This document shows positions 38,546 to 56,557 of a stretch of DNA of 64,000 nucleotides, piece by piece. This DNA comes from Arabidopsis thaliana (Eukaryota > Streptophyta > Magnoliopsida > Brassicales > Brassicaceae). The notes under the pieces were generated by a model that ran no database searches, was not told the origin of the DNA, and saw nothing but the letters and a program-made list of their open reading frames with translations. Where the stretch lies: contig NC_003070.9 of NCBI RefSeq assembly GCF_000001735.4, positions 27,823,971 to 27,887,970 of the forward strand, written 5' to 3'. The translations under genes and the position numbers were made by a program. Each line of letters opens with the position of its first letter. The stretch's first letter is position 1.

Positions 38546-39032
38546 AAACCTTACTGGGACAGGTACACTCGAGCCATTCTTATTTGCAAGATTGTATCAC
38601 AGCTTAAAGCACTTGAAGAGTTTGTTTTCTTCATCAAGTCATTACGAAAATAGATATCTAGATACTTACTTAATCAGGTTGAATCTTGTACATTAAATTG
38701 TAGACCTTATAACAGCAGCAGATTCAGATTTCTGCAAGTGAAGAGTGTAGTTTATAGTTGAATAGATTACAGATAAGAGCCTACCTTTTGGCCAATTTTT
38801 TATAGATTAACAAATCATATAGTATTTAAGTTATAAACTCTCTGTCTCTGAGTGCGTTTTCTACTTTAAGCATGTGCACACCAAACCAACAACCTGCGAA
38901 TCACATATTAACACGTGGGTAAAAATAGCTGCATTACTAAAGCCAATCTGATCTTTGTCCAAACACAGACCATCATCACTCATTTCCTACAGAACTCAGC
39001 ACAATTCTTTCAAATTCTCTTTCTAATCTTCA
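38546..39032. other. Spacer between the GAUT relic and SOT18
   Basis: AT-rich, with nothing recognised beyond a likely SOT18 leader in its last 100 bases. Confidence 0.45.
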
Positions 39033-40085
39033 ATGGAATCAGAAACCCTAACCGCCAAGGCTACGATCACGACCACGACCCTACCGAGTCACGACGAGAC
39101 CAAGACAGAATCAACAGAGTTCGAGAAAAATCAAAAACGGTATCAAGACCTCATCTCCACGTTTCCTCACGAGAAAGGCTGGAGACCGAAAGAGCCCCTG
39201 ATCGAGTATGGTGGTTACTGGTGGCTACCGTCTCTCCTCGAAGGTTGTATTCACGCGCAAGAGTTCTTTCAAGCACGACCCAGTGACTTCCTCGTCTGTA
39301 GCTACCCAAAGACAGGCACCACTTGGCTCAAAGCCCTGACTTTCGCCATCGCAAATCGTTCCCGCTTCGATGATTCCTCCAACCCTCTCCTGAAACGTAA
39401 CCCTCACGAGTTTGTTCCTTACATTGAGATAGATTTCCCTTTCTTCCCTGAAGTTGATGTTCTCAAAGACAAAGGGAACACTCTGTTTTCGACTCATATC
39501 CCATACGAGTTATTACCTGATTCGGTTGTGAAATCCGGTTGTAAGATGGTTTACATATGGAGAGAACCAAAGGACACTTTCATCTCCATGTGGACTTTCC
39601 TTCACAAGGAAAGGACAGAGCTTGGACCTGTCAGCAATCTTGAGGAGTCTTTTGATATGTTCTGTCGTGGTCTGTCTGGGTATGGTCCTTATCTTAATCA
39701 TATCCTGGCGTATTGGAAAGCATACCAAGAGAATCCAGATAGGATCTTGTTCCTCAAGTACGAGACGATGAGAGCTGATCCTTTACCGTACGTGAAGAGT
39801 CTGGCTGAGTTTATGGGTCATGGATTCACAGCCGAGGAAGAGGAGAAAGGTGTTGTTGAGAAAGTGGTGAATCTTTGCAGCTTCGAGACGTTGAAGAATC
39901 TTGAAGCTAACAAAGGGGAGAAAGACAGAGAGGATCGTCCTGGTGTTTACGCGAATAGCGCGTATTTCAGGAAAGGAAAGGTGGGAGATTGGTCGAACTA
40001 TCTGACTCCGGAGATGGCTGCTCGTATAGATGGGTTAATGGAAGAGAAATTTAAGGGCACCGGCTTGCTTGAACATGGTAAATGA
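39033..40085 (+). CDS. SOT18: SOT18, desulfoglucosinolate sulfotransferase (single exon, 350 aa)
   Basis: One uninterrupted exon, 350 aa. It transfers sulfate from PAPS to desulfoglucosinolates, the last core step of glucosinolate synthesis, in the cytosol. The PAPS 5'-phosphosulfate loop YPKTGTTW is at residues 91-98, the catalytic histidine at about 155 (FSTHIPYELLP), and the 3'-phosphate-binding region in YIWREPKDTFISMW. The C-terminal RKGKVGDWSNYLTPEMAARID closes the domain. No transit peptide is seen. From the literature, SOT18 and SOT17 prefer methionine-derived (aliphatic) substrates. It is 74100's nearest relative and faces it tail to tail with 433 bp between stop codons, so the two arose by an inverted tandem duplication. 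The start gives an N-terminal extension about 12 residues longer than in SOT16. Confidence 0.95.
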   Translation: MESETLTAKATITTTTLPSHDETKTESTEFEKNQKRYQDLISTFPHEKGWRPKEPLIEYGGYWWLPSLLEGCIHAQEFFQARPSDFLVCSYPKTGTTWLKALTFAIANRSRFDDSSNPLLKRNPHEFVPYIEIDFPFFPEVDVLKDKGNTLFSTHIPYELLPDSVVKSGCKMVYIWREPKDTFISMWTFLHKERTELGPVSNLEESFDMFCRGLSGYGPYLNHILAYWKAYQENPDRILFLKYETMRADPLPYVKSLAEFMGHGFTAEEEEKGVVEKVVNLCSFETLKNLEANKGEKDREDRPGVYANSAYFRKGKVGDWSNYLTPEMAARIDGLMEEKFKGTGLLEHGK

Positions 40086-40518: not shown

Positions 40519-41535
40519 TCAGTTATCATGTTGAAGCAAGCCAGTATCTTTGAATTTCTCCTCCACTAAGCCATCAATACGAGCAGCCATCTCAGGAGTC
40601 AAATAATTAGCCCAATCTCCAACCTTTCCTTTCCTAAAATACGCGCTATTCGCATAAACAGCAGGACGATCCTCTCTTTCTTTATCACCTTTGTTAGCTT
40701 CAAGATTCTTCAACGTCTCAAAGCTACAAAGCTTCACCACTTTCTCAGCAACACCATTCTCCTCTTCCTCATCAGTGAATCCATAACCCATGAACTCAGC
40801 CAATCTCTTCACAAAAGGCAAAGGATTGGCCCTCATGGTCTCGTACCTAAGGAACAAAATCCTATCTGGATTCTCTTGGTAAGCTTTCCAATAACCCAAA
40901 ACATGATCCAGATAAGGACCATACACAGATAAACCTTTACAAAACATATCAAAGCTGTCCTCAAGACTCGCTAATTGACCTTCTTGAGACTTCTCCTTGT
41001 GTAAGAAAGTCCACATGGAGATGAAAGTATCTTTCGGGTCTCTCCATATGTACACCATCTTACAACCAGAGTTCACAATCGAATCGGGTAATAACCCGTT
41101 TGGGATATGAGTAGAGAAAAGTGGGTTCTTTCTGTCTTGAAGAACATCAACGGTGGGGTAAAACGCGAAGTCGATCTCAACGTAAGGGACAAACTCGTGA
41201 GGGTTTCGTTTGAGGAGTGGGTTTGCGGCGTCGTCGTAACGAGAACGATTGACGATTGCGTAAGTTAGTGCTTTGAGCCAAGTTGTACCGGTTTTTGGGT
41301 AGCTACAGACGAGGAAATCAGTTGGTCGTGCTTCGAAATGGTCTTTAGCGTGAAAAAGACCTTCGAGGAGACATTCTTGCCACCAGTGTCCACCGTATTG
41401 GGTTAAGATCTCATCTGGTCTCCAGCCTTTGCTCTTTGGAAGTGTAGCGATGAAATCTTGATACTTCTTCTGGGTTTTCTCGAACTCTGTGAGTTCGACG
41501 ACTTCGGATCCGTTTTGGGTTGTCTTTGATTCCAT
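40519..41535 (-). CDS. SOT16: SOT16, desulfoglucosinolate sulfotransferase (single exon, 338 aa)
   Basis: One uninterrupted exon on the minus strand, 338 aa. Family residues are all present: YPKTGTTW at 79-86 (PAPS loop), catalytic His at about 143 (FSTHIPNGLLP), YIWRDPKDTFISMW, and RKGKVGDWANYLTPEMAARID near the end. From the literature this isoform prefers tryptophan- and phenylalanine-derived desulfoglucosinolates, so it acts in the branch controlled by MYB34, MYB51 and MYB122. It is intronless like SOT18 and convergent with it. A TATA box lies about 103 nt upstream of the ATG. A minor role in stress and auxin-related phenotypes has been reported (coronatine-induced 7). Confidence 0.95.
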   Translation of the reverse strand: MESKTTQNGSEVVELTEFEKTQKKYQDFIATLPKSKGWRPDEILTQYGGHWWQECLLEGLFHAKDHFEARPTDFLVCSYPKTGTTWLKALTYAIVNRSRYDDAANPLLKRNPHEFVPYVEIDFAFYPTVDVLQDRKNPLFSTHIPNGLLPDSIVNSGCKMVYIWRDPKDTFISMWTFLHKEKSQEGQLASLEDSFDMFCKGLSVYGPYLDHVLGYWKAYQENPDRILFLRYETMRANPLPFVKRLAEFMGYGFTDEEEENGVAEKVVKLCSFETLKNLEANKGDKEREDRPAVYANSAYFRKGKVGDWANYLTPEMAARIDGLVEEKFKDTGLLQHDN

Positions 41536-41637
41536 TGCGGATGAGATCGAGTGAAGGGAGTCAAAGAGGATGAATCGGGAAGGTTTGTTAGAGTTGTGGA
41601 AGATGGGATTGAGATTCTTGAGAGATGAGAAAATGGG

Positions 41638-41644
41638 TTTTATA
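41638..41644 (-). promoter_or_regulatory. TATA box of SOT16
   Basis: The minus strand reads TATAAAA, about 103 nt upstream of the start codon. Confidence 0.55.
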
Positions 41645-42696
41645 ATAGGAAGAAAGATTTAGGTAGGTGATGATGATGGCTCGATAAGGGTCGCATCAGT
41701 TGAACAAACCAATGTAAAATTATTGAATTTAGTTGGTAAAATTGAATTTCATTTTTATTAGCAAGTTATATTGAAAACTCTATATAACACTAGGAAGTAG
41801 ATTTTAGATTTATTTACAAGACTTTAACAAAAAAAAAAAAAATTAAGGTAAGCAAGTGATTGTATGAAAAAAAATTTGTAAGTAGAGAAGAAGTGGTTGT
41901 TGGTACTAAAAAAATCACGTTTTAGAAATGGAAATTAGCAGGTAGAGAGAGGCTTGGTTGGTTTGGCTACGTTATTGTGTTCGGTCCACGTTTATCTCTA
42001 GGCCGTTGCTGAATTTCCCTGCAGCTTCCAAGCCCCTTGTACACTTTATTTACTAATTAGAAAAGGCTCCACTTCTTTGCCAAAACAAAAAAGAAAGAAA
42101 AGGCTCCTATCTATTATGGAATGTCAGAGGCCTATGCAGTCCTGTCCATTAGAAAAGCCCATATATGTCTACATGTAACCCCTTCGTTGAGATTATTTTA
42201 GGAGTGTGCAATTTACACATTGCATAGCAAAAAATATTATTACATCAAACATATAATCTTGGGATCCGGTTTGTCACATATATAGCACACAAGTTTAGTT
42301 GTGACTGTGACTCCATGGCCGCATAAAAGGTTTTAGACATTTTTCCACAACAAAGATGGACGGACCCATAGTATTTAGATTTGAATTTTAGTTGCAATTA
42401 TCAACAATTTAATATGTCTATCTGTTATATATATAAAAATAAATAACTGCTATTATAAAATTATGTATTAAGAGTAAATAAAATACATTGATTAGCATAA
42501 ATTAAAATTTCAGAAATGGAACTTTATTAATTTGACTTTTGTATATCAAATCCGGTACAAGTTTTAGTATACTAATCATTTAGATGTGGAGGTGACAGAA
42601 AAAAAAAAATCACTAATTAGGAAATCTCACATGGGCAGTCAGACAACCCAGAGAGATAAACAAAGTTGCATAATTTGATAGTCTGTGAAACCCTAC
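41645..42696. other. Spacer between SOT16 promoter and CYP78A10
   Basis: About 1 kb of AT-rich sequence holding the SOT16 upstream region and the CYP78A10 3' untranslated region. No gene, RNA or element is recognised. Confidence 0.5.
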
Positions 42697-47952: not shown

Positions 47953-49290
47953 CTAAGCAAGTGACTCTATAAAGGACTTCATGTTCTGCACATCTTCTTT
48001 TGTTGTTAGATTGCTAGGCGGCTTCATAAGCTTCCAAAGCCCTGCGGGATGTCGTTTATTCACTCGGACATTCTCTTTTCTCTTTCCAAAGATTCTTTCA
48101 CACTCTGGGTATGGCATCACGTACAAATTATAAAATCTTTTCATGCTTGGTTTGATCAAACCTTTCAATCCAATATCACAGCCAAGCCCACCTTTTAGTT
48201 TCAAGTAATCAATGACATTGTACCGTGGAACGATCTGCTTCTGAAGATTAACCCCTAGATACTCCGGTACATCAGCTAAACAATTGATATGAAATCCCAT
48301 TCTGTTAGTTAAAAACTCAATCTTCTTCTCTATATCCTCTATCTCATATAAGATCACCCTCGGCTCTTTCCATACAACCTTGAATGCATCTCTACGAATC
48401 AACCCGTATTTGCATAAACAATCAACTCTGAGCTTCACTTCAAACCCAGCACGAAATGCTCCTTCGCTGATTATACTAACTCTAATCACTTCCCGGCATT
48501 TCAATGTGTTGATCAACTCCAAACACCGCGGAAGCTCACCTAACTCCAAACCAAGAACTCTCGGTTCTCTAGCAATCTCTTTCTTTACATCATCCTTACT
48601 AAACCCCATCTTCATGAACTCATCAAGCAATGGCTTAAGTCTAGTCTCAGTACCAATCCCTAGAACTTCAGGAAAAACGTGAAAGAACCTCTCAATGTTA
48701 TCTCGAGCAATGCCAATTCCAACTAAAAACTCAATCTTCCTACGAATTTCAATCTCATTCACTAAAAGAACACCAGGGAATGAACTTAAAATCCTACTCA
48801 CAGTACTATCACAAAACCCTAAACTCTTCAAAACCCTTACGCACTCATTAAACTTATCTGGACCAATCCCAATTCTACTAGAATGTTCAAGGACGCTCTT
48901 AATCGCAGAAGATGAGACGACACCGTGTTTACCGCAATTAGACAGAGGAACTCTCCATTTCCTCAGAAACTCTGATCGCAGAACATTAGGGCAATCGGAA
49001 ATCAACGAAACGAGTGATTTCTGAGGGATTTTCAATGACAATAGGATGCCGAGAGAAATTTCGGTTTCTACTAAGTCCGAATTCAATAGGTGATTGTTTC
49101 TTGAGAGGAAGTGCTGAAGAGAAGAAGGAGGGAAACCATACCTCTGAAGGAGATTCGCGAGTAAAATTCGTTTCCTGTAGTGAGATTGATTGATAGGTGT
49201 GAGAATTCGTGAGGATAGTGATCGAATCTGGTTGAATAGGGTTATTGGGTAGTCACGGAGATTGATGAAGGTTTTGAGTTTTGAGGCCAT
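47953..49290 (-). CDS. MTERF15: mTERF-family organelle protein, mTERF15 type (single exon, 445 aa)
   Basis: One uninterrupted minus-strand exon. The ATG at 49290 (MASKLKTFINLRDYP) gives 445 aa, which matches the described mTERF15. An upstream in-frame ATG at 49317 would add nine residues (MSALKLNKK). The N-terminus is basic and Ser-rich with little acid (RSLSSRILTPINQ), as in a mitochondrial presequence. The rest is a chain of mTERF helix repeats with the recurring pattern of Leu, Gly-Ile and Pro: KSLGFCDSTVSRILSSFPGVL, VGIGIARDNIERFFHVFPEVL in part, MGFSKDDVKKEIAREPRVL. They form a nucleic-acid-binding superhelix. mTERF15 (AT1G74120) is reported to be needed for splicing of mitochondrial nad2 intron 3. 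It is divergent from the first rhomboid gene across about 430 bp. Confidence 0.9.
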   Translation of the reverse strand: MASKLKTFINLRDYPITLFNQIRSLSSRILTPINQSHYRKRILLANLLQRYGFPPSSLQHFLSRNNHLLNSDLVETEISLGILLSLKIPQKSLVSLISDCPNVLRSEFLRKWRVPLSNCGKHGVVSSSAIKSVLEHSSRIGIGPDKFNECVRVLKSLGFCDSTVSRILSSFPGVLLVNEIEIRRKIEFLVGIGIARDNIERFFHVFPEVLGIGTETRLKPLLDEFMKMGFSKDDVKKEIAREPRVLGLELGELPRCLELINTLKCREVIRVSIISEGAFRAGFEVKLRVDCLCKYGLIRRDAFKVVWKEPRVILYEIEDIEKKIEFLTNRMGFHINCLADVPEYLGVNLQKQIVPRYNVIDYLKLKGGLGCDIGLKGLIKPSMKRFYNLYVMPYPECERIFGKRKENVRVNKRHPAGLWKLMKPPSNLTTKEDVQNMKSFIESLA

Positions 49291-49716
49291 TTTTTTATTT
49301 AGTTTCAAGGCACTCAATCACTGTACGAAGGAGGAAGAAAGACGATGACGACGTGTACAAAATTAAGATTATTATTTGTACCCTCAATGTTTCATCTTAT
49401 TCCGAAAATGCCACCCACTATTTGTTTTGTAAGACATTTAACCTTGTCTTGAGTGGGATTGTGGTTTAGAGATGGGAACGTCATGGTTTAATGAAAGTTG
49501 GAAGTTGTATATTTACAATTTCCCTAAACCGGAGGGAATCTTTTGTTTACCTAAAAAAAGAAAGTTGTTACTTCTTGTTACATTTACATCACTATTTTAT
49601 TGCACTTAAAAGACCTGAGTTTTTGAAACACACACTTTTCATGAATAATCAGAAGAAGTTGATGCTATTCTCTTATTTTTGCGCCATTTGGTAAAACATT
49701 TGAAATTAGTTTCGAA
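49291..49716. promoter_or_regulatory. Divergent promoter region of the mTERF gene and the first rhomboid gene
   Basis: 426 bp between opposing start codons. From about 49461 rightward it resembles 52721-52957, upstream of the second rhomboid gene, so this part belongs to the tandem duplication unit. Confidence 0.5.
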
Positions 49717-51927
49717 ATGCATGCGATTTTCTGTCGCAGGGTCGCCGTCGGTTGCTCTTCCCCGCAGCTAACCAAATTGGTGACGAAGCAGGCGAGCCAG
49801 AGTCGCCATTCCCTGAGCCATCTTCTTCCTTTTGATCTCTCTTCCCGCTTTGTTCCTCCTTATGTTGTATCACGATCGGCGAGAGTTCATGGATTCTTCG
49901 CAGGGAAGTTGGGAAACACCAATCTGAAGCTGAAATTCGGAAATGTTATGGAATCTAGAGCTGGGTTCTTCAGTTCTGAGCTTCCTAGTCATGGATTCGA
50001 GTCTGGTGGTTTTACTGGGTTTCAAAAACGTGGATGGTATCGTTTCTTTTCCTCTCCCTTTTTGTTTTTCAAAGTAAAGTTGGAACCTTTCCTAAGAAAA
50101 ATTCTGAGTTCCCCTTTCTCTATGGTCCTCTGTTTTATATTGTACCTATTTGTTTCCAAGTAAAAACTACATTTTTCAAAGATAAATTTGTCTTCACCAT
50201 AAAATTTCTGGGTTTGACAGGATTTATTTGGTAAAGCATCGACCTTTTTTCACAACTCTCTTTAGCTTTTCTGGTCAATTGTACGTTTGGCTCTTCCAAG
50301 TAAAAGACGTGTCAGGATTCAGAGAAATTAGTAGGCTTTTTTTTTCTTCCATTTCTGCGTAGTTCTTGATTTTGAGCAGCACAAAGCTCTTTTGATGCTT
50401 TTCTCTTTATAGATAAGACATAGAATAGCAAGCTGGACACTGTTTAGACCTTCTCCTTTAAAAAATTGTTCTCCTACATCAAAAATCTTAGATTCTTTAC
50501 CTGCTCCATTTGATTTTGGATACTAATACCAAAAAGAAAAAACCACTTTATTGGTTTAACTCTGGCAGGAAGTCTTGGATTAATGGAGCTAATGGTGTAG
50601 TTTTTGGATTGGTAATAGCTAATGCTGCTGTATTTACAATGTGGCGGGTTTTAGGCAAGGACAATATGTGGATGGTGAAGAATTTTATGGTCTGACCTCA
50701 TCAAATTCTAACAACTTTTTTAAAAATAAAAAATCTACATGTATTATTAACCATATGGTATTTGGACAGTTATCAAGGTACAGTTTTATGACTGGACGTA
50801 TACACACGCTGATCACTTCGGGTTTCAGTCATGTTGGAGCCACTCATATCATCTTGAATATGATGGGGCTTTGCTACTTCGGAGCCAGAGTAAGATTTTT
50901 TCCTTGTTTCCATATATTAATTTTCGTAAACGAAATGAGAAATGCTTTCATTTGTTTCCTATGAAGTATGAACCGGCTACTTACACTTAATCTGGCTCAT
51001 CTAAGGACCGTCCTTAGTTCGTTTAAAAAGAAAAACTTGCTACCTATTGATCTTTATATCGAATCCCATTTGTTCTTAGATTGCAAGAAGCTTTGGGCCG
51101 CGCTACCTTTTGAAGCTCTACTTTGCTGGAGCACTTGGTGGCTCTGTTTTCTTCTTGAGTAGTCATGCTCTCTCGGTTATATCACTCAAGGTATAGTGCA
51201 ACAAGCATAATTTTCTCATTTTCCTAACCATGCTAGGTCCACAGATGTGTAGTTTTTCCAGTGCATTTGTACTACGTACATGTTCTCTATGTGTTTGTGA
51301 GGTTTAGACGAAATGCTTTACCTTTGTTATTGGTTAATCAATCATACAGGGCCAAAGAGTTGTCCCTAAGGATCAATTAAAAGTCCCCATTGGGAAGCTG
51401 GTATGTTTTTTCACTCATCCAGTTAAATTATTTTTTAAAAGTATAAACAGACTGGAACAGAGATGCACACGCTCATGTTTTGGATGGTCAAACTCTTTCC
51501 AATTTGTGTACAGGGTGCTAATGGACCTGTGTATGCCATTACGCTTCTCGATATGCTCCTTTACCCAAAAGTTACTACATACTTTGGGTTGATGCTCCGA
51601 GTGCCTGTATTTGCTGTAAGGTCTCTCTAGATACTCGTCATAATGAGTGAAACGTTTCTGAATCATCTAAAATACTCTCACTCTCTTAATCTTCAGGGAA
51701 TCTATAGCTTAGGACTCAACATTATAAAGATGCTAGAGGTGTGTATGATGTGAGAATCTAATCCACATTTGCTTTGAGACTATATGACTATATCTTAAAC
51801 CAGACCAACTTTTTTGGGAATGCAGGGGAAAAACAACAATACCTTGACTAGTTTGGATCAGTTGGGAGGAGTTGTAGTTGCAGTCATTGCGTGGGCAAGG
51901 ATAAGGAAAGGTCGATTCTGCTACTGA
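49717..51927 (+). CDS. RBL16: RBL16-type rhomboid-like protein lacking catalytic residues (8 exons, 322 aa)
   Basis: Exons: 49717-50036, 50569-50689, 50770-50889, 51080-51190, 51350-51400, 51514-51615, 51697-51738, 51826-51927; 969 nt, 322 aa. It is related to the mitochondrial rhomboid RBL12. The first 60 residues are basic and hydroxylated, like an organelle presequence. A soluble linker follows, then about six membrane spans: NGVVFGLVIANAAVFTMW, a second with FSHVGATHIILN, which keeps the oxyanion-side His and Asn, then YLLKLYFAGALGGSV and others. The serine motif GxSG reads GANG (Asn244 instead of Ser). The helix-6 catalytic histidine position reads DQLGG (Gln301 instead of His). It therefore has the fold but not the dyad and should be a pseudoprotease. 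The symbol is from memory. Confidence 0.88.
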
Positions 51928-52957
51928 TTGATTATTTTACTTTCTCCATCAAACCTTGGACTTGCTGCAAAAGATTCATATAACTTGTCCCATCATTATA
52001 CTACTGGAGTACTGGTTATGTTAAACTTTGTGACAATGAGATTATTATTATTACTATTTTTTACGTTTGGCCTGCACATTTTGGAAACCTTCGTTTCCAA
52101 AGTAAACTAATTCTTATTCTCTTGTCGTCAAAATTTGAACATTGAAGATTATCTTAAGGTTATTGTCTTGACATTTATTCCAAGTCTTCTCACCAAGCTA
52201 TTGTTTTCTTTTGAAGTCAATCACAAGGATTATACAGAAAAACAACGAATTATCTATTCCTTTAAAATAGACAAACCTAAACTATAAAGACTAAATCCTT
52301 TTTCCTTACAAATAGTACTAACATGCAAATAAATACTTATGAGAATATCCAAAAAGATTATAAAAAATTATTGTGAAAAGACAAATGCAAATTTTTCCTC
52401 ATTTTGTCAAGTTGAGGATCTTTGTGACTTTGTTTAAGTTAGCCGTTTTATAGAGAACAGAGAGAGAGTAGATTCTAGTCACTTGGGTACATTCTAGGAA
52501 TTGTTCAGTGTCCAATTACATAATTGTTTTGATGTCGAGTAAATCTCATTATGTGAGTTTGTGAAAGACTACTTAACCGATTTCTAGTACAAGATTTGAT
52601 GGTGAATTTGCTTTGATTCTTCTTTTACACTATTGCGGTTGCAGCAATAGCGAGAAGATGAATAATAAGATATAGCAGTTTCTGGTTATGGTTACTTGAT
52701 AATTTGATGTATGTAAATTGTGATTTTGGAGATGGAAAAGTTATGGTTTAAATTTACAACTTTCCTAAACGGGAATGAGCATGTGATTTTATTTTATTTT
52801 ACTAGTGTTTAGTGTGACGTCACTTTTGATTGCACTAAAAAAAAGGTGACGTTTTTAACACACATACCTCATGGTGTCTCATGACAATAAAACAATCAGA
52901 AGTTCATGCATTTGGTATAAAAAATTGAAAATTTATTCCGAAGAAAAAGGAGAAAAA
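51928..52957. other. Spacer between the two rhomboid genes
   Basis: The part at about 52128-52255 resembles 55845-55960 downstream of the second gene, and about 52721-52957 resembles the sequence before the first, so the spacer holds the end of one duplicated unit and the start of the next. No other gene is seen. A longer in-frame ATG at 52871 exists for the second gene. Confidence 0.55.
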
Positions 52958-55614
52958 ATGCATGCGATTTTCTCGAGCTTCTCTCGCAAGGTCGTCGTCA
53001 ACGTTGGTGCTTCTTCGCAATCGCAGCTAACCAAAATGGTGAAGAAGAAGCCAAACCAGAGTCGCCATCTTCTTCCTTCTCGCCTCTCATCTCCTTCTTC
53101 AGTACCCCACTTTGTTCCTTCTGCTGTATCGCGATCGGCGAAAGTTCATGGGTTCTTCGCTAGCAAGTTGGGAAACACCAACCTAAAGCTGAAATTTGGA
53201 AATGTTATGGAATCTAGAGCTGGGTTCTTCAGTTCTGAGCTTCCTAGTCATGGATTCGAGTCTGGTGGTTTTACTGGGTTTCAAAAGCGGGGATGGTATG
53301 GAATCGTTTCTTTTCGTCTCTCTTTTTGTGATTTTGCTGGGTTTCAAAGTAAAGTTCGAAGCTTTCCTAAGAAAAGTTCTGAAATTTCTGAGTTCCTTTT
53401 CTCTATGATCCTCTGTTTCTCGTTAGCTAAGTAAAAGTCTACATTTTTCTGAGATAAACTTGTCTTCCGGATGAAATTTCTGGTTTTGATTTAGGGTTTA
53501 AACAGAGTTTCTGTGGTAAATTATCGACCTTTTTAAGCTTTTCTGGTTAAGTACACGTTTGGCTCGTCCAAGACATACGACATGTATGAGAATTTCAGAG
53601 AAGAAGATGAGAAATTAGTAGGCTTTACTTGCTATTTTGCCATTTCTGTGTAGTTGTTGATTTGAGTAGCGCAACGTTCATTTGATGATTTTCTCTTTAT
53701 AGATAGACTAGCAGCTCGACACTGTACACACCCTTCTCATTAAAACTTTGTTCTCCAGATATAGAAATAACATCAGAATCTTAAAATTCTTCACCAGCTC
53801 TAGTTGATTTTGGTTTGTGTTTTCCTCTGGCAGGAAGTCTTGGATCAATGGAGCTAATGGTGTAGTTTTTGGACTGGTAATAGCTAATGCTGCTGTATTT
53901 ACAATGTGGCGAGTTTCAGACAGGAGCTGGATGGTGAAAAATTTTGTGGTCTAACATATTACTGCTAAGCTCTTGTCTTGGATTTGGTTGATCTTTGATA
54001 TGTTTGAACCTTGATTTTTGAGCAGCTATCAACGTACAGTTTTACGAGTGGATATATACACACGCTGATAACTTCGGGTTTTAGTCATATTGGTACCAGT
54101 CAAATCATCTTGAACATGATTGGAATCTCCTACTTCGGCTCCAGAGTATGAATTATCTTTCCTTGTCGTTTCTCCATAGAAAAATGCTTCTCAATATTCG
54201 ATTTTTGTAAATGAGATGAGAAATGCTTTCATTTGTTTCCTATGAAGTGGCTACTTTCACTTTATTGGAGACACATTCACTAATAGCTAATATACTTAAG
54301 AAAGAAAAGTCCTTAGCTAGATACTATTAAGTCGGTTCTTTTTGGGAAATTTGCTACCTGCTGATCTATCCATTGAATTAACTATTTATCTTCATCTCTA
54401 AAATCCATTGTTGCTATTAGATTGCAAGAACCTTGGGACCGCTCTACCTTTTGAAGCTGTACTTTGCTGGAGCACTTGGTGGCTCTGTTTGCTTCCTGAG
54501 TTATCACGCCCTCTTGGCTACACTCAAGGTATATAGCAAGTTTCCTTAAATCATGCTATAAAAAAGCTTTTAAAAGAATAACTCTCTTTTATTGATGATT
54601 AGAAAACTCTCTCAAAAACTAAACACCAAAGCTCTTTTAATGTTTTCTCTTATGTTTGCCACAACTCAACAAACATATATATAGGGTTAGCACACACTGC
54701 AATTTCCTATTCCTAGTCCTACATGAATTAGGAAACTCCTTTTTTCCTTTTCTTCTTGAACTAGATAATTACTCTTTTTGACATAACTTAAACCGACTTG
54801 TTTAAGTTGTCTTGGGCTTCAAGACTTGAAGCTTACCCAACAAGGTCCACAGATTGATAGTTTCTTTCATTGATCATGTTGCATTTCATTTGCAGTACAT
54901 GTTATATGTGCAAAACGAAGTTTTGAGGTTTAGACTAAATGATTTTACCTCTGGAGATTAAACGAAATGCTTTACCTTTGATATTGGCTGGTCAATCATA
55001 CAGGGTGAAGGAGTTGTCATTAAGGATCATCAATCAACAGCCCCCATTTCGCAGCTGCTGGTATGTTCGTACTCACCTAACTAAATGATTTGTCTGAGCA
55101 TGAACAGACTTGGTTGATAGATATAGAGAGTGAGACGAAAATGCACATGCACTTGTTTTTGGATCACCAAATGCCGATGAGGTAAACTCTTTCCTATTTG
55201 TGTACAGGGTGCTGATGGATCTATGTTTGCCATCGCGCTTCTCGATATGTTCATCTACCCAAAAGTTACAACATACTTTGCGTTGATGCTCCGAGTGCAT
55301 GTAATGTTTGTAAGAACTCTCTACATACTCTTCTTATTGAGTGAAAGTCATGTGAACCAACTAAAAAACTCGCACTCTTTAATCTTCAGCGAATCATAAA
55401 CTTAGGAGTCGAGATTTTAAATATTCCAGAGGTGTGTATAATCTGAAAACCTAATCCGCATTTGCTTTGAAACACTATATATGACTATCTCTTAACCATA
55501 ACTTTTTTGGGAATGCAGGGGGGACCGAACCATATCGCATCGAGTTCGGGTCAGTTGGGAGGAGTTGTGGTTGCTGCCATGGCGTGGGCACGGATAAAGA
55601 AAGGTCGATTTTGA
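52958..55614 (+). CDS. Second rhomboid-like pseudoprotease, AT1G74140 type (8 exons, 325 aa)
   Basis: Exons: 52958-53295, 53834-53948, 54026-54145, 54421-54528, 55004-55060, 55208-55309, 55390-55431, 55519-55614; 978 nt, 325 aa. It is a tandem copy of the gene at 49717-51927 with the same eight exons. The N-terminal 110 residues are nearly identical over RAGFFSSELPSHGFESGGF, while the membrane part has drifted further. The serine motif reads GADG (Asp249), the catalytic histidine position reads GQLGG (Gln306), and one conserved loop histidine is also lost (SHIGTSQ instead of SHVGATH). It is thus more degenerate than its neighbour but still an open frame. Intron 4 has a 285-bp insertion absent from the sister gene. 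The start matches the sister gene; an upstream in-frame ATG at 52871 would add 29 residues that the sister lacks. Confidence 0.85.
54558..54842 (-). mobile_element. LTR-like insertion in intron 4 of the second rhomboid gene
   Basis: The sister intron reads straight from CATGCT into AGGTCCACAG; here 285 bp intervene. Read on the minus strand the insert begins TGTTGGGTAAGC, a start typical of Ty1/copia long terminal repeats, and contains AAAACTCTC/AACTAAACACC-type words common in such LTRs. The other end is not clean and no 5-bp duplication is visible, so it is best called a partial or solo LTR. Confidence 0.5.
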
Positions 55615-56557
55615 TACTGAACTGATTTGCTGCAAAAGATTCAGTGGACCTGATCATCATCATGCAAGTTATGTTAAACTTCGTGACAAATGAGATTTTT
55701 GTCAACATTTTTTCGTTTGGGTTGGACTTTTGTTTTGTAAACTGAAACCAAGAGATCAATTTGATGGGTTTGGACCGTTTGGTTACATTGGAAACTATTT
55801 TTTTTTCTCTCTTTATCGTCAAAATTGGAACTTTTATTTGAACATTGTAGATTATCTTAAGGTTAATGTCTTGACATTTATTCCAAGTCTCATCCCCAAG
55901 ATATGGTTGTCTTTTCACGTCAATCACAAAGATTATATAGGACAAACAATGAATTTTACTCCATTAACTGCAAAAATATTCAATATATTTCCTTTGACAA
56001 TTTTCTATTTAACTATGCCGTTACGTTAATTTCTTTTAGACTTTTACCATGTTATTATTAATTTGTGTATGTAACAATTAATTACGGGTACCACGAATTA
56101 CTCATTGGACACATAGACTTTAAGGTAAGAAAGATTACTCATTGGATTATTTTTGTTGTTGTTGTTGACATCATTACTCATTCGAATTAAAGCTCAACAT
56201 AAAAAAGTAAAGAAGGCTCCGTTTATCACGAATCAGTCCATTTATTCAGTTACGTCGTCGCACCATTGTTTTAATTTCGGTAACTGTTTCTTTTTTTTTT
56301 TCTTTTCTTTTGCAGTAACCATTGTTTCAATAATCGTGTATTAGAGTGTATATACTTTAATACATTGTTATTAGAGAAAAACCTAAAGCAAAGGAATCAC
56401 CTTTATATTCCTCTGTATCGCCATTACCATTAAAGAAATAATTTTGGGATTTTGGATTTTCCTCTTCTCGTCTTCAATTTTATAATCTTCTATTCCACAA
56501 AACCCTTAATTTTCCCGCACTTTCTCAACGCAAAGGAAGGATCTTTCTTCCAAGACA
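55615..56557. other. Spacer between the second rhomboid gene and the kelch gene
   Basis: The left part is the duplicated 3' flank (to about 55960). Further right are T-rich runs and a CT-rich leader before the kelch start. Nothing else is recognised. Confidence 0.5.

Follow-up and report, generated by a model that had tools for sequence, protein, structure and literature searches.

A tandem pair of PARL-type rhomboid genes in Arabidopsis thaliana lacks the catalytic residues and retains open reading frames under weak constraint

Two adjacent rhomboid genes of Arabidopsis thaliana, whose products lack the catalytic residues, raise the question of whether they are kept as non-cutting membrane proteins or are drifting towards pseudogenes. 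We explored this question in a stretch of 64,000 nucleotides (contig NC_003070.9, positions 27,823,971 to 27,887,970 of the forward strand; hereafter the window), which carries both genes on its + strand: copy 1 at 49717-51927 (8 exons, 322 amino acids) and copy 2 at 52958-55614 (8 exons, 325 amino acids). By gene model and alignment, both encode inactive PARL-type rhomboids, with GANG and Gln301 in copy 1 and GADG and Gln306 in copy 2. We take the copies to be AT1G74130 (RBL16) and AT1G74140, respectively. These locus numbers agree with a published classification, in which At1g74130 and At1g74140 are each other's most recent duplicates and are grouped with At1g18600 (RBL12) in clade III (PMC1560137). 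Both copies are members of the Rhomboid superfamily, with Pfam Rhomboid (PF01694) scores of 50.4 bits (copy 1) and 45.3 bits (copy 2), above the curated cut-off of 22.6; RBL12 scores 94.2.

In each copy all seven introns run from GT to AG and there are no internal stops. RBL12, in the same genome, has an identical eight-exon structure and carries GASG, HLGG and the HxxxN His; columns for Ser and His were defined by, and checked against, the RBL12 alignment alone, because the sole match to a solved structure (see below) reached only transmembrane segment 2 (TM2) and the part that follows. An earlier note on this DNA, made from the letters alone, had claimed that both retained rhomboids have lost the catalytic dyad, and the alignment with RBL12 that it proposed put the GASG and the His of RBL12 exactly in the columns it had named. 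In copy 1, exon 6 (51514-51615, + strand) encodes G-A-N-G in place of G-A-S-G, with codon AAT for Asn244, and exon 8 (51826-51927, + strand) has Gln301 (CAG) where RBL12 has its catalytic His (CAT). In copy 2, exon 6 (55208-55309, + strand) encodes G-A-D-G, with codon GAT for Asp249, and exon 8 (55519-55614, + strand) has Gln306 (CAG). Neither copy carries the catalytic Ser of GxSG or the catalytic His of the last core helix, both of which characterize an active rhomboid protease.

A further residue of the active site has changed in copy 2. The HxxxN motif of TM2 is HIILN in copy 1 and QIILN in copy 2, where exon 3 (54026-54145, + strand) encodes Gln in the column of copy 1 His173. The change from SHVGATH to SHIGTSQ had been read correctly in the earlier note, but its assignment to a loop was not borne out: this His falls in the column of the HILFN histidine of H. 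influenzae GlpG (PDB 2nr9), and by that alignment the residue lost in copy 2 is the TM2 HxxxN histidine. GlpG 2nr9 was the only match (E = 0.0042, spanning TM2 and what follows it) when a profile of the three sequences was searched against solved structures with E up to 10, and RBL12 searched as a single sequence gave no match among solved structures at E<=0.01. As aligned, three active-site residues are gone from copy 2 (Ser, His and the HxxxN His) and two from copy 1 (Ser and His).

Could activity have survived in another form? A splice form regaining Ser and His was rejected: a scan of + strand frames in stretches around exons 5-8 of each gene gave neither GxSG nor HxGG, and its single AHFG lay downstream of the copy 1 stop, and every single-intron retention or single-exon skip that was tried yields a shorter protein. 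It is highly improbable that Asn or Asp together with Gln perform the work of Ser and His. The glycines of GxxG are retained and Gln is common to both copies, and the text of a 2025 review lists 'Atg74130' as active, with no residue-level support in the text available (PMC12615303); yet rhomboid catalysis has been described as requiring Ser and His (PMC1560137), the residue at the Ser position differs between the copies, and constraint in exons 2-8 is weak. As aligned with RBL12, the residues contradict the listing of 'Atg74130' as an active protease. The listing reportedly goes back to a 2011 paper cited by that review.

The codons of the three-sequence alignment suggest an order for these losses. 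At the Ser column RBL12, copy 1 and copy 2 read AGT, AAT and GAT; at the His column CAT, CAG and CAG; and at the HxxxN His CAT, CAT and CAA. Codon parsimony suggests that Ser to Asn and His to Gln both preceded the tandem duplication and were followed by Asn to Asp in copy 2, the Ser loss being placed before the duplication because AGT to AAT to GAT is the shorter path; two independent Ser losses would require two base changes in one of them. The shared His loss had been proposed in the earlier note to predate the duplication, in agreement with this order, and its observation that the Ser replacements differ stands, refined by a probable shared Asn stage from which Asp arose later.

We then asked how the copies have evolved since they separated, and the evidence was split: frames and splice sites have been retained beyond neutral expectation, while amino-acid constraint since the duplication is weak. 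Every one of the seven coding indels that separate the copies has a length divisible by three, compared with 6 of 29 in introns (Fisher one-sided p=0.0002), and none of the approximately 19 frameshifting coding gaps expected at the intron rate was observed, with the reservation that indel counts vary with the alignment. In neutral simulations, a lineage kept its ATG and remained free of premature stops in 7.5%, 3.1% and 1.7% of cases at 0.08, 0.105 and 0.13 substitutions per site, and the neutral probability that all 28 splice-site bases survive was 0.106, 0.053 and 0.026 at the same divergences. Set against these expectations, the in-frame indels, open frames and splice sites led us to reject the view that the copies have been plain pseudogenes ever since the duplication.

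Over the whole protein the copies differ at 92 amino acids, against 108 under neutrality (P=0.004), a deficit that comes mainly from exon 1 (29 versus 38, P=0.007); in exons 2-8 the differences were not clearly fewer (63 versus 69, P=0.11), and the changes there were milder than neutral (hydropathy P=0.001, BLOSUM62 P=0.011). A crude split by hydrophobic segments (53 codons; hydropathy P=0.04, BLOSUM P=0.36) was not relied on. A codon model of three sequences only (copy 1, copy 2 and RBL12, whose branch includes the shared stem) gave a ratio of non-synonymous to synonymous rates (dN/dS, omega) of 0.73 on the copy branches versus 0.34 on the RBL12 branch (twice the log-likelihood difference 9.46, p=0.002), and of 0.83 versus 0.38 in exons 2-8 (p=0.015), the RBL12-branch values being rough owing to the high synonymous divergence (Ks) of that branch. 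On the copy branches, omega was 0.60 in exon 1 (p=0.09 against 1), and 0.68 when the first 60 residues were removed, a value statistically compatible with 1 (log-likelihoods -2116.91 versus -2118.39). The NG86 pairwise omega between copies was 0.65 (bootstrap 0.48-0.92) overall and 0.72 (0.45-1.14) in exons 2-8. This pattern suggests that both copies have been kept as proteins with a membrane-compatible sequence under loose constraint, as expected for a non-catalytic membrane protein.

The same figures bear on relaxed decay, according to which the dead copies do little or nothing and drift towards pseudogenes, their open frames being recent luck or a leftover. It draws on a post-tandem omega (0.73, and 0.83 in exons 2-8) that is indistinguishable from 1 and significantly above that of RBL12 plus stem, and on the additional loss of the HxxxN His in copy 2; against it stand the seven in-frame coding gaps, the conservative hydropathy changes of exons 2-8, the retention of every splice site, a pairwise omega whose bootstrap interval lies below 1, and fewer whole-protein differences than under neutrality. 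We consider decay rather unlikely, though a possibility to be reckoned with. The alternatives offered by the earlier note, a binding or regulatory role or decay in progress, are in this way partly resolved, in favour of retained frames and splice sites and with weak amino-acid constraint; as for its proposed dN/dS on the two branches, with plain pseudogenes as the outcome near 1 if expression is lacking too, the estimate is not distinguishable from 1 and the in-frame indels still argue against plain pseudogenes.

A narrower alternative holds that AT1G74130 alone is functional and AT1G74140 is its degenerating tandem copy. The functional reports available concern At1g74130, and copy 2 scores lower against Pfam, lacks the HxxxN His as well and has an expanded intron 4 that holds a repeat fragment. 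The two lineages, however, have evolved at equal rates (59 unique base changes in each, with 23 unique amino-acid changes in copy 1 and 20 in copy 2), their single-branch omegas are alike (0.70 for copy 1, 0.78 for copy 2) and the frame of copy 2 is intact, and we regard this alternative as unlikely.

From what ancestor did the pair arise? Over 310 ungapped columns, copy 1 is identical to RBL12 at 165 (53%) and copy 2 at 168 (54%). When translated frames of the window were compared with the 26.5-kb RBL12 region, the matches came in the same order and were largely collinear: in the window, a segment at 32-33 kb, a segment at 38 kb, a gene at 39 kb that we take to be a sulfotransferase gene, the rhomboids, a presumably kelch-type gene (from 56.5 kb) and more segments at 63 kb. 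Collinearity is incomplete, since a second, opposite-strand sulfotransferase-like gene (40.5-41.7 kb) matches the same single gene on the RBL12 side, and the interval 41.7-49.6 kb, including an mTERF-like frame, gave no matches in the 26.5-kb RBL12-side stretch. This arrangement suggests that the block is a segmental duplicate of the RBL12 region, presumably from the alpha whole-genome duplication. As judged by exon structure, identity, the largely collinear block and clade III membership, the pair belongs to the PARL-type (RBL12-like) rhomboids, a grouping made through the comparison with RBL12. RBL12, the candidate segmental-duplicate paralogue, differs from both copies in keeping its dyad; since the pair lies in the RBL12-collinear block, inactivation would therefore postdate that duplication. 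Populus has one clear RBL12 orthologue (PMC1780054), which is consistent with a later duplication.

NG86 Ks values between RBL12 and the copies were 0.94 and 0.91, against 0.29 between the copies, and by this measure the tandem duplication is much younger than the split from RBL12. The adjoining sulfotransferase pairs gave 1.24 and 1.08, of the same order as the rhomboids and not identical. Within the window, the two sulfotransferase-like genes lie tail to tail (39027-40082 on the + strand, 40522-41658 on the - strand), have a relative next to RBL12 and show an NG86 Ks of 0.85 between them. Directly upstream of the rhomboid pair, on the opposite strand, lies a long single-exon frame (47953-49317, - strand) that looks mTERF-type.

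The tandem units were aligned by blastn (E<=1e-5) in three pieces, 49,715-52,251 against 52,956-55,955, beginning near the ATGs and ending 324 and 341 bases beyond the respective stops, and at this threshold no similarity between the units was reported upstream of the ATGs. Their longest identical run is an 89-bp tract at the end of exon 1 of copy 1 (49939-50027, + strand), with its partner in copy 2 at 53198-53286 (+ strand). None of 5000 permutations, in a test that presumes even divergence, produced a run as long, the genes being ~77% identical overall (exons and introns), and the tract is probably the product of a recent short gene conversion between the tandem copies. Intron 4 measures 475 bases in copy 2 and 159 in copy 1; in copy 2 it contains a repeat fragment (54561-54740), for which 13 matches, 75-94% identical, were listed on contigs C2-C5.

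The reading that we favour, at somewhat better than even chances, is that the pair encodes two PARL-type pseudoproteases which bind rhomboid clients or active rhomboids without cutting. A single ancestor, the segmental-duplicate partner of the mitochondrial, dyad-bearing RBL12, would have exchanged Ser for Asn and His for Gln and then have been duplicated in tandem. The proteins would still go into the inner membrane of an organelle, either plastid or mitochondrion, where they would bind transmembrane segments of the clients of active rhomboids, or associate with active rhomboids, and would alter the share of client that is cut or kept, with no cleavage by the pair. Client binding in the plant is most likely the activity concerned, the experiments that back it being heterologous ones with AT1G74130; AT1G74140 may have a function too. 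A more elaborate version appears decidedly unlikely: one daughter of the segmentally duplicated plant PARL gene would have become a dedicated non-cutting partner and then have split into co-existing Asn/Gln and Asp/Gln versions, which join RBL12 or a plastid rhomboid in assemblies or vie with it, so that two genes for dead enzymes together regulate intramembrane proteolysis in the organelle.

The existence of an inactive rhomboid at this tandem locus is largely known already, since AT1G74130 had been published as inactive by 2018. Powles et al. 2013, cited by Powles and Ko 2018, reportedly carries an 'inactive' At1g74130 rhomboid in its title. Powles and Ko 2018 (PMC7065720) call At1g74130, the first gene of our pair, an inactive PARL-type plastid rhomboid, and describe splice variants L, M and S that differ in their levels of interaction with Tic40 and each lack a key C-terminal glutamine. 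In yeast, the uncleaved-to-cleaved ratio of Mgm1 fell from ~0.7 to 0.45 with variant M alone and 0.39 with S alone, and was raised, to 0.81-1.09, with variant pairs (PMC7065720). Catalytically compromised Arabidopsis rhomboids had been noted in 2006, with a regulatory role cited as possible, and the pair is not named as inactive in the portion of that paper available (PMC1560137). In the 2025 review, the table lists RBL16 with no substrate or role (PMC12615303). As for RBL12, no substrate is identified (PMC12344103), it did not process yeast substrates (PMC8847149, PMC12344103) and it was not found in the FTSH4-SLP1 megacomplex (PMC13365137), as far as the available parts of these papers go.

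Sources differ on the organelle. Both gene products are assigned to the plastid in one source, which counts At1g74140 as another plastid rhomboid (PMC7065720), and RBL16 is predicted to be mitochondrial in another, where verification is called for (PMC8847149). A mitochondrial location, which the earlier note proposed to look for, can therefore not be taken for granted. In the alignment, the N-termini of both copies resemble that of RBL12, which is mitochondrial (PMC8847149).

Several observations weigh against non-cutting client or protease binding by the pair. The Mgm1 effect has no simple direction, the M and S variants lowering the ratio singly and pairs raising it; the assays, done in yeast and in bacteria, are heterologous and come from a single laboratory, with Mgm1 ratios from two experiments; and the variants assayed are C-terminally shortened (PMC7065720). 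No published experiments on the AT1G74140 protein were found in the accessible literature on the pair. The 2022 KOMPEITO paper (PMC9180352) claims to be the first to give evidence that a plant rhomboid without catalytic activity has a function, and its authors therefore did not count At1g74130. The review text that places 'Atg74130' among catalytically active proteases (PMC12615303) also counts here, although other sources disagree with it. From our own analysis, copy-branch omega is not significantly lower than 1 (p=0.10 overall, p=0.45 in exons 2-8), and the changes in exon 1 are no milder than neutral (hydropathy P=0.56, BLOSUM62 P=0.45).

Two known systems offer points of comparison for the proposed binding role. 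Animal iRhoms are likewise rhomboid-type proteins devoid of protease activity, for which binding is the proposed regulatory mode, but their signature is GPxx with His (PMC7065720), found in neither copy, whereas the pair has GANG or GADG with Gln and sits with RBL12; the likeness to iRhoms drawn in the earlier note extends at most to the mode of action and not to grouping. KOMPEITO (At1g77860) is an Arabidopsis rhomboid-like protein thought to act non-proteolytically; it differs in having a mutant phenotype in callose and the pollen wall (PMC9180352) and in belonging to clade I rather than the clade III of the pair (PMC1560137).

Residues, gene structure, collinearity, the order by codon parsimony, the kept frames and the weak constraint were all computed here. 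The codon-based loss order, the identification of the HxxxN His, the RBL12 collinearity, the split constraint and the probable 89-bp conversion tract were not found in the literature examined, as far as its available parts extend; in particular, the accessible text of PMC7065720 contained no branch analysis, no order of Ser and His loss and no identity tract. The trio in one genome, RBL12 with both residues and two dead tandem copies, offers a tidy system for studying the transition of a duplicated membrane protease to a pseudoenzyme.

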